64,000 bases of DNA from Borrelia recurrentis A1 (lineage in GTDB: Bacteria; Spirochaetota; Spirochaetia; Borreliales; Borreliaceae): contig NC_011244.1 of assembly GCF_000019705.1 (NCBI RefSeq), forward strand, positions 496,001-560,000, written 5' to 3'. The translations under genes were made by a program, and so were the position numbers. Within the stretch, counting starts at the first letter, position 1. Each line of letters begins with the position of its first letter. Positions 12,745 to 35,377 of this stretch are shown piece after piece. The notes under the pieces are model-generated. The model had not been told where the DNA came from. It saw nothing but the letters and a program-made list of their open reading frames with translations, and made no database searches.

Positions 12745-13491
12745 TTGACTGTTAAAGAATTATCATTGCATTTGGATGAAATATTTAAAGTCAATGATCA
12801 TAAGGATATTGATAAAAGTCTTAATGGACTTCAAGTTGGTAATTTGGAGCTTGAGGTTAAAAAGGTTGCTTTGGCTGTTGATGCAAGTATGGCAACTTTA
12901 AGAGAAGTAAAGGGTTATGATTTTTTAATAACTCATCATGGTATTTTTTGGTCAAAATCAGATAAAATTATTGCTGGTATGTATGATAAAGTGAAATGGC
13001 TTATTAATAATGATTTGTCGCTTTATTGTGTTCATTTACCAATGGATGCTCATACTATTTATTCTCACAGCAGAGTGTTGTCTGATTTTCTTGGATTTCA
13101 TAATCCTATTCCCTTTGCAAATTATAAAGGTATTAATTTGGGTATTATTTCTATTGCTGAATTTGGTTTTTCTGAAATTTTAAAAAGGATTGAAGCCCAT
13201 AATAAACATATTCTTTTTTATAAGAAATTTAAAGAGTACGTATCAAGAGTGGCTATTGTTAGTGGTTCTGGATATTCTTTTTTTGAAGAAGCATTAGAAT
13301 ATGATATTGATTTGTTTATAACTGGAGATACTTCTCATCAGATATATTCTTTGGCTGAAGAGAGGGGTGTAAATTTGATATTTGCTGGTCATTATTTTAC
13401 CGAAACGTTTGGTTTGTTAAAATTAATGGAATATTTAAAAAATCAACGAGGATTAGAAGTTGATTTTATTTTACAAGATACTAATTTATAA
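12745..13491 (+). CDS. Nif3-like dinuclear metal-centre protein
   Basis: The start is TTG 12745, with GGAG eight bases upstream, one base after the previous stop. The 248-residue product matches the short form of the Nif3/YbgI family. Metal ligands are visible in FLITHHGIFW, in CVHLPMDAH, and in the C-terminal FAGHYFTETFG with its His and Glu. Some members are described as GTP cyclohydrolase type 2, but the biological role of most is unsettled. It lies between pgeF and lspA in a tight operon. Confidence 0.88.
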   Translation: MTVKELSLHLDEIFKVNDHKDIDKSLNGLQVGNLELEVKKVALAVDASMATLREVKGYDFLITHHGIFWSKSDKIIAGMYDKVKWLINNDLSLYCVHLPMDAHTIYSHSRVLSDFLGFHNPIPFANYKGINLGIISIAEFGFSEILKRIEAHNKHILFYKKFKEYVSRVAIVSGSGYSFFEEALEYDIDLFITGDTSHQIYSLAEERGVNLIFAGHYFTETFGLLKLMEYLKNQRGLEVDFILQDTNL

Positions 13492-13500
13492 GGATTTAAT

Positions 13501-14013
13501 ATGAATATAAATAGAAACAGATTAGTTAGTAATTTGATCTTTATCTCTATTTTAGTTTTTTTTGATCAATGGTCTAAATATTTAGTTGTTACTTATGTTA
13601 GGCTTGGAACCGAATATCTATCTTTTTTTGGGGATCTTTTTAAGATAATACATGTAAGAAATACTGGTGTTTTATTTTCATTAGGTTCGAATATTGATTC
13701 TAGCTTGAAAAATTTATTTTTTCTTATAATTCCTATTATTATTTTAGTTTTTGTTTTTTCTTTTTCATTAAAAGAAAATAACAAAGTATCGAGGTTTGCT
13801 CTTATTTTGATTTTATCTGGTGGTATTGGGAATATTATTGATAGACTTTTTAGGCCTTTGGGTGTTGTGGATTTTTTGGATGTGAAGTTTTTTGGTATTT
13901 TTGGACTTCAGAGATGGCCAACCTTTAATTTTGCAGACAGTTATGTTGTTGTTGGAATGATCGTGTTTATAATTTATGATTTATTTACTAAAGATAAAAG
14001 TACTAATTTATGA
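13501..14013 (+). CDS. lspA: Lipoprotein signal peptidase II
   Basis: LspA cleaves the signal peptide of prolipoproteins after lipid is added to the cysteine, which matters in a lipoprotein-rich genus. The 170-residue protein has four predicted membrane segments. The family motifs are intact: FDQWSKYLV near the N-terminus, RNTGVLFSL, and the aspartate-bearing GGIGNIIDRL and FNFADSYV, which hold the two catalytic aspartates. AAGGAT precedes the ATG. The small membrane gene downstream overlaps its stop. Confidence 0.96.
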   Translation: MNINRNRLVSNLIFISILVFFDQWSKYLVVTYVRLGTEYLSFFGDLFKIIHVRNTGVLFSLGSNIDSSLKNLFFLIIPIIILVFVFSFSLKENNKVSRFALILILSGGIGNIIDRLFRPLGVVDFLDVKFFGIFGLQRWPTFNFADSYVVVGMIVFIIYDLFTKDKSTNL

Positions 14014-14234
14014 ATTTTTTATATTTTGTTTTATGTTCATTAATTAATTTATCTTTAATGTTTTTTATTTTTTTTCTTGAATTTCTTTTTGTTTCAAGAT
14101 TGAATATTATAGTTTCTCCTATTTTTCAGTATGTTTTAATTATTGTGATGATTTTTATTTCAATTGCAATAAGCTATTTTTTGTCAAGTGTTATTTTTAG
14201 GAATATTATTTCTAAGTTTTTTGATCTGGATTAA
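14010..14234 (+). CDS. Small two-helix membrane protein, unknown function
   Basis: This 74-residue product starts at ATG 14010, overlapping the lspA stop (ATGA). It consists almost entirely of two hydrophobic helices (residues about 3-30 and 36-65) and ends in a short polar tail. I recognise no family. Translational coupling to lspA and to the following YmdB-like gene suggests a real gene rather than a chance frame. Confidence 0.65.
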   Translation: MNFLYFVLCSLINLSLMFFIFFLEFLFVSRLNIIVSPIFQYVLIIVMIFISIAISYFLSSVIFRNIISKFFDLD

Positions 14235-14248
14235 TAGGAGAAGATTTT

Positions 14249-15067
14249 GTGAGTTTGCGGATTTTGGTTTCTGGAGAGATTGTAGGTAAGCCTGGCGTTT
14301 TTGTGGTAAAAAATTTTTTACATTCTTTTAAAGAAAAAAATAAAATTGATTTTGTTATATCTGGCAATAATTTTACTACAGGATTTAGAGGATTATGTAA
14401 GAGACATGCATTTTTGTTAAAGAAATATGGTGTTGATGTTTTAACTTTAGGAGAAAATGCATTTGTAAGGGCTGGGCTTAGTGACGAACTTGATAGGTAT
14501 AATTTTATTTTAAAACCTTTAAATTGCCCTGCTAGGTTAAAAGGTTATTCTTATTTTATTTATAGTATAAATGGAATTAAACTTGCTGTGCTAAGACTTG
14601 TGGGACAGACAGGAATTACGAAATATAATTTTAATAATCCTTTTCTTACTTTTGATTATTTTTATGAAAGAATTAAGTCAATTACCAATAATATAATCGT
14701 ACTTTTTGATTCTAATACCACAGCTGAAGTTAATGCTATGTTTTTTTATCTCAAATCTAGAGTTAGTGCTTGTTTGGGTATTGGTAAGAGAATATTAACA
14801 GCAGATCTTAGAATTTTTGATAATACTGCAGTTATTACCGATCTTGGTAGAGTTGGAAGTTTAGATAGTGTTGTTGGATATTCTACTGTATTTGAAATAG
14901 ATAAATTTTTAAAAGGTTTTTTAAATAATAAATTTACTGAATCGTGGGATGGGCTTGGTTTTAATGGCATTATAGTTGATATTGATGATGGTAAGGCTGT
15001 GTTTGTTGAGGCTATAAGGGAATATATTGATTTTGACAGTAGTATTGCAAATAGTACTGATATTTAG
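14249..15067 (+). CDS. YmdB-family paralogue lacking catalytic metal ligands
   Basis: The start is GTG 14249, eight bases after TAGGAG. The 272-residue product aligns along its length with YmdB-type metallophosphoesterases, including the copy at 34586 in this window. The fold-defining ending TAVITDLGRVGSLDSVVGY is kept. The metal ligands are replaced: Asp to Glu10 in SGEIVG, NGEN to SGNN (38-41), GNH to GEN (68-70), DFHAE to FDSNT (153-157), and the paired histidines of GTHTH to GIGKR (177-181). It is likely an inactive or repurposed member. It sits between lspA's partner and murA. Confidence 0.8.
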   Translation: MSLRILVSGEIVGKPGVFVVKNFLHSFKEKNKIDFVISGNNFTTGFRGLCKRHAFLLKKYGVDVLTLGENAFVRAGLSDELDRYNFILKPLNCPARLKGYSYFIYSINGIKLAVLRLVGQTGITKYNFNNPFLTFDYFYERIKSITNNIIVLFDSNTTAEVNAMFFYLKSRVSACLGIGKRILTADLRIFDNTAVITDLGRVGSLDSVVGYSTVFEIDKFLKGFLNNKFTESWDGLGFNGIIVDIDDGKAVFVEAIREYIDFDSSIANSTDI

Positions 15068-15125
15068 GTGTTACTTTAATTTTTAAGTGTTTTTTACATA
15101 AATTTTATTTGGTTGGGAGGTAATA

Positions 15126-16406
15126 ATGTATAGCTATCTTGTGGAAGGTGGTTTTAAAATAGGTGGAAAAATAACGGCGAGTGGAAATAAAAATGCGGCT
15201 TTACCTTGCATGATAGCAGCATTGCTTACAGATGAAGAAGTGATTTTGGAAAATGTTCCAAATATTAGAGATGTAGAGGTTATTTTAAAAATTTTAGAAG
15301 ACATAGGCGTTGATGTTGTAAGGGATGGTAATATCCTTAAAATTAAGGCCTTAAATATTGCGAAAACAGAAATAGATTCTTCTTTAACGGATTTAATTCG
15401 AGCTTCAATTTTATTTGTAGGACCTATGCTTGCTAGGTGTGGGCGAATTGATATTGCTCCTCCGGGTGGAGATGTTATTGGTAAAAGGCGTCTTGATACT
15501 CATTTTTATGGTCTTGGTAAGCTTGGTGCTAAGTTGATAGAGAATGAACGTATTGTTTTAGAGGTAGATAATTTAATTGGTGCTGAGATGTTTTTGGATG
15601 AGGCATCAGTTACGGCTACTGAGAATATTATTATGGCTTCTGTTCTTGCTTTTGGAGAAACTGTGATAATGAATGCTGCATGTGAACCACATGTGCAAGA
15701 TTTGTGTAATATGTTGAATTTGATGGGAGCTGACATTTCTGGAATTGGTTCTAATTTGCTTAAAATAAGAGGTGTTAAGAAATTAAGAGGGGCTAAATTT
15801 AGGATAGGTGCTGATTTTATGCAGATAGGTTCATTAATTAGCCTTGCTGCATTAACGGGAGGTGAGCTTGAAATTAATAAGGCTGATCCTGGTAATTTTA
15901 TTTTAATAAAGCATGTATATTCAAAATTTGGTATTGATTTTGAATATGATAATGAAAATATATATGTTAAAGAAAAACAGTATTTAAAAGTAAGGTTGGA
16001 TTTTGGAGGACATATTCCTAAAATTGATGATGGTCCTTGGCCATCTTTTCCAACAGATCTTATGAGTATTATGATAGTAACTGCGACTCAAGTTCAAGGT
16101 ACTGTGCTTATTTTTGAAAAAATGTTTGAATCAAGGATGTTTTTTGTAGATAAACTTATTAAAATGGGAGCTCAAATTGTTCTTTGTGATCCTCATCGTG
16201 TGGTAGTTACAGGGAAAACTATTCTTAAGGGAAATGATGTATCTTCTCCTGATGTTAGAGCAGGTATGTCTTTACTTATTGCAGCTCTTTGTGCTGAGGG
16301 TAAGAGTCGTATTCATAATATTTATCAAATTGAGAGGGGATATGAAGATGTTGTTTCTAAGTTGAGCTTTCTTGGTGCAAGAATTAAAAGAGTGAGAGAT
16401 GAATAA
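15126..16406 (+). CDS. murA: UDP-N-acetylglucosamine 1-carboxyvinyltransferase
   Basis: MurA adds enolpyruvate to UDP-GlcNAc, the first committed step of peptidoglycan synthesis. The 426-residue protein has the two-lobed EPT pattern, with SGNKNAALP at the N-terminus, LIRASILFVGP, and PSFPTDLMS followed by DVRAGMSLLIAAL. The residue at the usual catalytic cysteine is Asp116 (APPGGDVIGKRRLDTH). This substitution is known from B. burgdorferi MurA and gives intrinsic fosfomycin resistance. GGGAGG lies seven bases before the ATG. Confidence 0.97.
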   Translation: MYSYLVEGGFKIGGKITASGNKNAALPCMIAALLTDEEVILENVPNIRDVEVILKILEDIGVDVVRDGNILKIKALNIAKTEIDSSLTDLIRASILFVGPMLARCGRIDIAPPGGDVIGKRRLDTHFYGLGKLGAKLIENERIVLEVDNLIGAEMFLDEASVTATENIIMASVLAFGETVIMNAACEPHVQDLCNMLNLMGADISGIGSNLLKIRGVKKLRGAKFRIGADFMQIGSLISLAALTGGELEINKADPGNFILIKHVYSKFGIDFEYDNENIYVKEKQYLKVRLDFGGHIPKIDDGPWPSFPTDLMSIMIVTATQVQGTVLIFEKMFESRMFFVDKLIKMGAQIVLCDPHRVVVTGKTILKGNDVSSPDVRAGMSLLIAALCAEGKSRIHNIYQIERGYEDVVSKLSFLGARIKRVRDE

Positions 16407-33054: not shown

Positions 33055-34596
33055 ATGTCATATATTACTTTTTCTTCTATTCTTGCTGGTGTCCTAGGTG
33101 TTATATTAGGTTTTATAATAAGAATTATTTTAGGTAGATTTTCTTTATTAAATTTAGATAAAAAACTAAAGAAGGTACAAGAAGAAGCAATCTTAGAAAT
33201 AGAAAATGAAAGAAAACGAGTTATTTCACATGCAAAATCTCAGATGCTTAAAGATAAAAACCAGCAAGATAGGGAAATAAGAGAGAGAAAAAATGAGGTT
33301 TTTAATTTAGAAAAAAGGTTATTACAGAGGGAAGAAACCTTAGATAAAAGAATAGCAGCCCTTGATAAACAGCAAAGTAGAATTGATTTTAAACTTAAAG
33401 AATTTGAACAGAAAGAAAAAATAATACGTGAGAAAGAATTATCTCTTGTTAAAAAAATTGAAAATATTGCTGGTCTTACAAAAGATGAAGCAAGAAAGAT
33501 TGTAATTGAAAAGGTTGAAAATGAATCTAAAAGGGATGCTCAAATTATTATTAATAAGTCTGAACAAGAGGCTCAGCTCTTAGCAGATAAAGTGGCTAAA
33601 GATATATTAGTGTCTACTATGCAACGCATAGTAACAGAAGTTAGTTCTGAGTTTACAGTAACTTCTGTTGAACTTCCTAATGATGAGATGAAAGGTAGAA
33701 TCATTGGTAAAGAAGGGCGTAATATTAGGGTTCTTGAAACATTAATAGGTGCAGATATTATTATTGATGATACTCCAGAGGCTGTTGTGATATCTTGTTT
33801 TGATCCAGTAAGAAAAGAAGTAGCAAAAAGAACTCTTGAGAGGCTGATTTCAGATGGGAGAATTCACCCTGCAAGAATTGAGGAGATTGTTTATAGTGTT
33901 ACTAATGAGATTAACAATATTATTCTTGAGGAAGGTGAAAGGGCAGTATTTGATTTAAATATACATGGATTTGATAAAAGACTGATTAGGGGTCTTGGAA
34001 GACTTTATTTTAGAAGCAGTTATGGTCAGAATGTTTTAAGTCATTCAAAAGAAACAGCTATAATTGGAGAAATTTTAGCTAAAGAGATGAAGTTGGATCC
34101 TGTTGTTGTCAAAAGGGCATGTCTTTTGCATGATATTGGAAAAGGAATGGAAAGTATTTCTGAGAATAGTGAGGGACATGCTATTACAGGTGCTGAACTT
34201 GCTCAGAGCTGTGGTGAGAGTGATATTGTTGTTAATGCTATTGCTGCACATCATAATGAAATAAAACCTGAGAGCTTTGAGGCTATAGTTGTTCAAATAG
34301 CCGATGCTATTTCTGCATCGCGTCCTGGTGCAAGACGTGAGAGTTTAAATAATTATATAACAAGACTTAAGAGACTTGAAGAGATTGCTTATGGATTTGC
34401 AGGTGTTCAAAAATGTTATGCAATTCAGGCGGGTCGTGAAGTTAGAATCATTGTTGACAATTTGTTGGTTAATGATGAGAAAGCTACTATGCTTGCAAGA
34501 GATATTGCAAAGAAGATAGAAGTTGAAATGCGATATCCTGGAAAGATAAAAGTTACTATTATTCGTGAGACCCGGGTTATTGAATATGCAAGATAG
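33055..34596 (+). CDS. rny: Ribonuclease Y
   Basis: RNase Y is a membrane-anchored endoribonuclease that starts mRNA decay in bacteria without RNase E. The 513-residue protein has an N-terminal membrane helix (about residues 5-27), a coiled coil to about 180, a KH domain with GRIIGKEGRNIRVLE near 220, and an HD domain with the metal-binding LLHDIGKGM near 355 and AHHNE after it. All parts are intact. The stop overlaps the canonical ymdB gene, a pairing conserved in many bacteria. Confidence 0.97.
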   Translation: MSYITFSSILAGVLGVILGFIIRIILGRFSLLNLDKKLKKVQEEAILEIENERKRVISHAKSQMLKDKNQQDREIRERKNEVFNLEKRLLQREETLDKRIAALDKQQSRIDFKLKEFEQKEKIIREKELSLVKKIENIAGLTKDEARKIVIEKVENESKRDAQIIINKSEQEAQLLADKVAKDILVSTMQRIVTEVSSEFTVTSVELPNDEMKGRIIGKEGRNIRVLETLIGADIIIDDTPEAVVISCFDPVRKEVAKRTLERLISDGRIHPARIEEIVYSVTNEINNIILEEGERAVFDLNIHGFDKRLIRGLGRLYFRSSYGQNVLSHSKETAIIGEILAKEMKLDPVVVKRACLLHDIGKGMESISENSEGHAITGAELAQSCGESDIVVNAIAAHHNEIKPESFEAIVVQIADAISASRPGARRESLNNYITRLKRLEEIAYGFAGVQKCYAIQAGREVRIIVDNLLVNDEKATMLARDIAKKIEVEMRYPGKIKVTIIRETRVIEYAR

Positions 34597-35377
34597 TGAT
34601 GTTATTAGGACTTTAATAGTTGGAGATATTGTAGGCAATGGAGGACTTAAGAAGATTTTCTTCCATCTTAAGAGTCTTAAGGATAAGTATAATATAGATT
34701 TGACAATTGTTAATGGAGAAAATTCTTCTGGTGGTTTTGGGATTACTCCAGAGATAGCTGAAAATCTTTTTAAAACAGGTGTGAATGTGATTACTACGGG
34801 TAATCACATTTATGCTGATCCGAGTATAAGGGAGTATTTAAATAAACAGGAATATATATTAAGGCCAAATAATTTTTCAGATTTACTTGAAGGACATGGT
34901 CATTGCATTTTAAATGTCAAGGGTGAAAAAGTTGCTGTTATAAATATTCAAGGATTTTTGGGAATGACTTTTATTGTGAAAAATCCTTTTGAAAATGTAA
35001 AAAAAGTTATAAATATGATTAAGAATAAGGTTAAGACGATTTTTGTTGATTTTCATGCTGAGAGTAATTATGAAAAGGAAAGTTTTGGATATTTTTTAAA
35101 TGGATTGGTAACGGGAGTTGTTGGTACTCATACACATATAATGACTTGCGATGAGAGAATCTTGGATAAGGGTACTGCTTATATTACTGATCTTGGTATG
35201 ACTGGTAGTTTAAACTCTGTAATAGGCTTTAACCCTGAAATTTCTCTTAAAGGGTTACTTGAATATATTTCTTTGCGAACAGAAACTGTTGAGGAAGATG
35301 TGATTATACAGGGAGTTGTTATTACTTCTCATTTATACACAGGACGTGCTTTGAAAATTGAGAGAATACAAAAATAG
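34586..35377 (+). CDS. ymdB: YmdB-type metallophosphoesterase, canonical
   Basis: YmdB-type enzymes hydrolyse 2',3'-cyclic nucleotides. ATG 34586 is chosen, overlapping the rny stop, because the earlier GTG 34565 lies inside rny. The 263-residue product keeps every metal ligand: VGDIVGNGG (Asp14), VNGENSSGG, TGNHIYAD, VDFHAESNYEK and VGTHTHIMTCDERIL. The ending TAYITDLGMTGSLNSVIGF is also intact. This contrasts with the degenerate copy at 14249. It overlaps the tlyA start by 20 bp. Confidence 0.94.
   Translation: MQDSDVIRTLIVGDIVGNGGLKKIFFHLKSLKDKYNIDLTIVNGENSSGGFGITPEIAENLFKTGVNVITTGNHIYADPSIREYLNKQEYILRPNNFSDLLEGHGHCILNVKGEKVAVINIQGFLGMTFIVKNPFENVKKVINMIKNKVKTIFVDFHAESNYEKESFGYFLNGLVTGVVGTHTHIMTCDERILDKGTAYITDLGMTGSLNSVIGFNPEISLKGLLEYISLRTETVEEDVIIQGVVITSHLYTGRALKIERIQK

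Follow-up and report, generated by a model that had tools for sequence, protein, structure and literature searches.

A YmdB paralogue without standard metal ligands in Borrelia recurrentis belongs to an ancient Spirochaetota subfamily

In Bacillus subtilis, YmdB controls a lifestyle switch, and we know of no account of how its phosphodiesterase activity drives that switch. The DNA analyzed here, a 64,000-nucleotide window of Borrelia recurrentis A1 (contig NC_011244.1, positions 496,001 to 560,000), carries two genes of this family about 20 kb apart, one of which encodes a protein that has replaced the residues at every standard metal-binding position. We asked what this second protein is, how it came to lose its site, and why it has been kept. 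A preliminary description of the locus had suggested a retained pseudoenzyme, perhaps a regulator or partner of the active copy. Below, YmdB1 denotes canonical YmdB, while YmdB2 is the name that we define here for the Spirochaetota paralogue that groups apart from it.

Family, fold and residues of YmdB2

The ymdB2 gene (14249..15067; all features described lie on the + strand) encodes 272 amino acids, opens with GTG, contains no stop inside its reading frame, and is preceded by AGGAG, a ribosome-binding-like site read from the sequence (14236..14240). We take it to be BB_0471 of B. burgdorferi B31. Its upstream neighbors are lspA, encoding signal peptidase II (13501..14013; PF01252, E=1.1e-31), and a strongly hydrophobic 74-residue open reading frame that overlaps lspA (14010..14234), and the gene on its 3' side, named murA from its sequence, occupies 15126..16406. 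Only 14 bases separate the hydrophobic frame from ymdB2 and 58 bases separate ymdB2 from murA, and no terminator-like site was found within 13300-15300. The order lptC-lptA-lptB-yfiH-nif3-lspA-74-residue frame-ymdB2-murA was identical in all five of the Borreliaceae loci that we examined completely. The hydrophobic frame has a homologue in 34 of 34 other Borreliaceae loci; its product, which had no match in profile searches of Pfam or NCBIfam, looks like a protein with two membrane helices. A PHROG search for a phage origin of ymdB2 returned no match.

Searching the whole genome with PF13277 recovered two YmdB genes only. The first, ymdB1, adjoins rny at 34586..35377 (coordinates given as 34586/34604-35377); its product matches PF13277 with E=5.6e-87, also matches Metallophos in the profile search, and scores 360.3 bits against TIGR00282, the canonical YmdB equivalog, above the cut-off of 254.15. 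YmdB2 matches PF13277 over profile positions 1-252 of 253 (199.4 bits against a cut-off of 27, E=7.9e-59) and shares 30% identity with the ymdB1 product (BLASTP E=5e-32), but it falls below the TIGR00282 cut-off at 147.8 bits. An AlphaFold2 model of YmdB2 built from 54 sequences (pLDDT 91.9, pTM 0.90) superimposes in Foldseek on B. subtilis YmdB (4b2o) with TM scores of 0.88/0.91 and an rmsd of 1.8 A, and its top PDB matches are four YmdB-family structures. The structure prediction that the preliminary description had proposed as a check thus yields a confident YmdB fold, and YmdB2 is predicted to retain the calcineurin-like architecture of its family.

The Fe(II) site of YmdB is formed by D8, E39, N40, N67, H150, H175, and H177, with H68/D71 as the catalytic pair (PMC10406935). 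All eight of the B. subtilis residues D8, E39, N40, N67, H68, H150, H175, and H177 are present in the ymdB1 product, whereas in YmdB2 these positions read E N F E N D G R. In an ungapped orthologue alignment, the metal-1 ligand D8 is replaced by E10 (codon 14276..14278), the bridging ligand E39 and metal-1 ligand N40 by N41 and F42 (14369..14374), the metal-2 ligand N67 and catalytic H68 by E69 and N70 (14453..14458), the metal-2 ligand H150 by D154 (14708..14710), and H175 and H177 by G179 and R181 of the G179-K180-R181 stretch (14783..14791). E10 may be paired with R181. Since the same eight residues are common to all 35 Borreliaceae genomes examined, their replacement is not due to chance.

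These searches and alignments bear out the earlier claim of a ligand-less YmdB paralogue with a canonical copy 20 kb away, together with the replacements of D by E10, GNH by GEN, and GTHTH by GIGKR. Two motif comparisons needed correction. The change of H150 to D154 stands, but the segment that aligns with DFHAE is LFDSN, which starts one position before the proposed FDSNT; and although the ligands in NGEN are indeed lost, an asparagine lies over N40, as the proposed SGNN would have it, only in a gapped pairwise alignment. The exchange of D8 for glutamate is conservative, and an acid or amide is retained at N41, E69, and D154, so that the absence of metal ligands means the absence of standard ligands only and cation binding is possible. 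Standard phosphodiesterase catalysis is very probably missing from YmdB2.

Purifying selection accompanies these replacements in Borreliaceae. Pairwise Nei-Gojobori estimates of dN/dS for YmdB2 are ~0.16-0.18 (a median of 0.16, or 0.18 when restricted to pairs also available for YmdB1), compared with 0.11 for YmdB1, 0.25 for lspA, and 0.08 for murA. Across the 35 genomes, 121 of 272 columns are invariant, including all eight former ligand positions, and invariant residues are enriched in the pocket and the two residues on either side (21/29, p=0.001), a test that placed E39 and N40 at residues 40 and 41 rather than at N41 and F42 as in the ungapped alignment; F42 is identical in every Borreliaceae row of the latter. 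The pocket of YmdB2 is maintained, not eroding. That YmdB2 is a decaying duplicate without function is accordingly very hard to credit: the long stem branch leading to Borreliaceae (1.52 changes per column) could be read this way, but the protein is intact in 35/35 Borreliaceae with a dN/dS of ~0.17 and an invariant pocket, and it is present across Spirochaetia families. Neither relaxed selection nor stop codons, which the preliminary description had named as evidence against a kept pseudoenzyme, were seen in these 35 genomes.

Ancient paralogy and stepwise change of the metal site

The preliminary description implied that a Borrelia paralogue had simply lost its ligands, a history that the wider distribution does not support. 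Every one of the 35 Borreliaceae genomes has a YmdB2 orthologue (74-96% identity, no stops), nearly every other sampled family of Spirochaetia has both a YmdB2 (29-42% identity) and a canonical copy, and a YmdB2-type copy also occurs in other classes of Spirochaetota (EDGD, HHR and similar). In a tree of 83 rows, YmdB2 forms a single clade of 54 rows with support of 100/99.9, within which the sequences from other classes are basal and which stands apart from YmdB1 and from the YmdB of B. subtilis, Deinococcus, and Mycoplasma. The five single-copy Spirochaetota genomes that we checked have the canonical type only, four beside rny and the fifth with another usual neighbor. YmdB2 is thus the product of one ancient duplication in Spirochaetota, not of an event in Borrelia, and the loss of catalysis predates Borreliaceae.

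The best 80 matches in the genome collection were all from spirochaetes except for one record labeled Cloacimonadota. This contig (L128, Candidatus Cloacimonadota) has the order YmdB2-RseC-lptC-lptA-lptB and falls within a spirochaete clade, pointing to a misbinned contig or a transfer. Separately, the YmdB2 match of one metagenome-assembled genome (L091) contains an in-frame stop codon; similar-looking stops are a TAA in G227 and, within YmdB1, a TGA in G049, and all three are probably assembly errors.

The order in which the site changed can be followed in a census of 104 YmdB2 proteins from outside Borreliaceae. In all of them N67 is replaced by glutamate or aspartate, H68 is lost, and H177 is replaced by lysine or arginine; D8 has become glutamate in 100 and N40 glycine in 96, while position 39 is acidic in 94, H150 is kept in 99, and H175 is kept in 82. 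From these residues, a mononuclear site made of E/D39, E/D67, H150, and H175 is possible in most YmdB2 outside Borreliaceae. In the scheme that we propose, the ancestor of YmdB2 would have lost the catalytic histidine together with the metal-1 site through the changes of H177 to Lys/Arg, D8 to Glu, and N40 to Gly, with Lys/Arg177 facing Glu8 and a salt bridge between them probably standing in place of metal 1, and the exchange of N67 for an acid would have left room for at most one metal on E/D39, E/D67, H150, and H175. The remaining metal-2 residues are also gone from Borreliaceae (E39N, H150D, H175G), where loss of this second site would have produced a folded pseudoenzyme with no standard metal site and a conserved pocket.

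A comparable end point occurs in Treponemataceae, where one genus shows full ligand loss (E G M D, S G G in G311, G368, and G383; E N S E, A G K in G304). The ymdB2 gene is still kept in the Treponemataceae with full loss (EGMD.SGG), and further lineages (G057 and G040) have lost the site in part. Borreliaceae and the Treponemataceae genome G057 stand apart in the YmdB2 tree, which indicates separate losses in the two families; the genus with full loss (g29) is represented only in the RNase Y tree, where it joins G057. Four Treponemataceae YmdB2 with total ligand loss (L219-L221 and L232) also carry an insertion of a few dozen residues before the TDAGRTGS motif.

The acids and amides that persist in Borreliaceae raise the question of whether the pocket has been remodeled rather than disabled, with N41, E69, and D154 forming an all-oxygen Mg2+/Ca2+ site that serves another catalysis or binding, as in the epimerase MslH. 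The positions of these three residues are invariant in the 35 Borreliaceae, and an acid occupies position 67 in all 104 other YmdB2. MslH itself, having lost the second metal, works with one Ca(II) on the counterparts of E39, N67, H150, and H175 (PMC10406935), and this comparison implies that typical YmdB2 lost the metal that MslH is missing plus the catalytic histidine, leaving one metal on two acids and two histidines conceivable. However, MslH requires the pairs His88/Asp91 and His295/Asp11 (PMC10406935), while YmdB2 has no general acid/base histidine at position 68, and the single-metal set of MslH is not found in Borreliaceae YmdB2, which have N41/E69/D154/G179 and N70 instead. Some Treponemataceae YmdB2 moreover retain only the acid at 67 of the metal-2 set, so YmdB2 does not need a metal site as a rule. 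We therefore consider a remodeled, cation-dependent pocket unlikely.

Genomic neighbors and co-occurrence with YmdB1

Outside Borreliaceae, a gene for RseC/MucC (PF04246) lies directly 3' of ymdB2, usually overlapping it, in 71 of the 101 loci with enough sequence, and is often followed by lptC-lptA-lptB and an apparent rpoN. In E. coli, RseC is a membrane protein of two helices whose cysteine-rich N-domain can bind an Fe-S cluster (PMC11729352), and its recurrence beside ymdB2 in these spirochaetes suggests a link to a membrane redox system. The lspA/murA setting is confined to Borreliaceae: none of the five Borreliaceae genomes tested has RseC, and murA is on the 3' side of ymdB2 instead. 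The hydrophobic 74-residue frame was considered as a degenerate RseC and rejected (profile comparison probability 2.9%).

These neighborhoods could mean that YmdB2 serves the envelope or membrane redox (RseC/Rnf, Lpt, lspA-murA) in a structural or adaptor role and does not act through YmdB1, a possibility for which both the frequent RseC-lptC-lptA-lptB order and the position of the Borreliaceae gene between lspA with its hydrophobic frame and murA could be cited. RseC is nevertheless missing from the five Borreliaceae that have YmdB2, and it persists in several Treponemataceae that have lost YmdB2, so it is no strict partner. The neighbors also change completely among lineages while the link to YmdB1 persists. 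On balance, an envelope adaptor independent of YmdB1 seems unlikely to us. Two genomes without RseC (G040 and G048) have degenerate YmdB2 sites as well, whereas in two Treponemataceae loci (L231 and L232) RseC adjoins a ligand-less YmdB2, indicating that the metal site is not required for the adjacency; with a Fisher p of 0.08, we do not claim that loci with RseC alongside differ in the completeness of their metal-2 site.

The link to YmdB1 was evident in a survey of 391 genomes of the class Spirochaetia with completeness of at least 90%, among which 89 had no YmdB and 302 had one or more. Single matches were found in 22 genomes, and in two of these a relaxed search recovered a fragment of the second copy, leaving 9 with YmdB1 only and 11 with YmdB2 only. 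All 20 are drafts of at least 20 contigs, and no listed assembly with 10 contigs or fewer had exactly one YmdB. On the RNase Y tree, the pattern of both or none takes four changes on the best tree, at least three of which are forced by well-supported branches, a count that depends on a single marker tree whose branches are long, with most of the listed YmdB-less genomes coming from one family. One joint loss falls within a genus of Treponemataceae, in which the 1.1-Mb single contig of G114 has neither gene, and also lacks RseC, while G304, G311, G368, and G548 have both genes. Outside Borreliaceae the two genes are usually hundreds of kb apart (4.37 and 3.44 Mb in G058; 2.40 and 1.41 Mb in G041), and joint loss is therefore not a single deletion. 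Joint loss by way of the loss of RNase Y was ruled out, as RNase Y is present throughout the genomes that lost both YmdBs.

We also compared evolutionary rates. Given RNase Y, the rates of YmdB1 and YmdB2 covary (partial r 0.53, p 0.0055), and the correlation is 0.67 after removal of the three lineages whose RNase Y branches are long but 0.18 (p 0.16) after removal of five (G046 and G057 also out); this mirror-tree covariation is suggestive and not robust. An apparent acceleration of YmdB1 where YmdB2 has lost H175 (raw p=1e-4) reflected general acceleration, with p=0.6 after division by RNase Y.

Because YmdB1 and YmdB2 were lost jointly in independent lineages, our preferred reading is that YmdB2 is a retained pseudoenzyme that partners or regulates YmdB1 without catalyzing a reaction itself, a reading to which we assign about an even chance. 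YmdB2 would bind to YmdB1, either as a subunit that is not catalytic or as a regulator, and tune the phosphodiesterase; a small ligand or cation held in the altered pocket may mediate this effect. The earlier suggestion of a partner for the active copy is thus strengthened in part: at least three joint losses favor it, but the 20 single-copy draft genomes and the RseC neighbor outside Borreliaceae do not.

A possible two-part system and its known relatives

Extended to the phylum, partnership would make YmdB an obligate two-part system in Spirochaetota, in which YmdB1 supplies catalysis, a dedicated YmdB2 does not, and the two are kept or lost together, the pocket of YmdB2 passing from a two-metal to a possible one-metal site and then, at least twice independently (in Borreliaceae and in some Treponemataceae), to no standard site, so that its retained function never depended on catalysis. 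We offer this broader proposal tentatively, as somewhat less probable than its opposite. If spirochaetes, among them the pathogens that cause Lyme disease and relapsing fever, need both catalytic and non-catalytic YmdB, this would suggest a complex and open an easy route to the role of YmdB. The YmdB2 subfamily also provides a natural gradation between a two-metal enzyme and a site-less relative, useful for studying how pseudoenzymes originate.

The family and fold of the protein are known, while a phylum-wide, catalytically dead paralogue and its site-less Borreliaceae form are not described in the literature that we searched. That search found no paper on the function of YmdB2 and none of relevance on YmdB with Borrelia, and BB0471 appears in one paper, solely as a conserved-indel marker.

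Among characterized structures, B. subtilis YmdB (PDB 4b2o) has in common with YmdB2 its fold, length, order of motifs, and the TAD.RI and TD.G motifs, but YmdB2 differs in having no standard metal or catalytic residue, in scoring below the TIGR00282 cut-off, and in not lying beside rny. DR1281, MPN349, and TTHA0625 (PDB 1t70, 1t71, and 2cv9) belong to the same family and fold, and in DR1281 and MPN349, unlike YmdB2, the eight standard positions read D E N N H H H H. The lasso-peptide epimerase MslH (PDB 8gq9) is a calcineurin-like relative of YmdB in which the second metal has been lost and the site rebuilt for another purpose (PMC10406935). It resembles YmdB2 more distantly (TMq 0.64, 11% identity), and it retains E44, N87, H259, H261, and the His88/Asp91 pair and possesses an additional domain, whereas Borreliaceae YmdB2 lack those histidines; the likeness to MslH is closer for the HHK-type YmdB2 of spirochaetes outside Borreliaceae.
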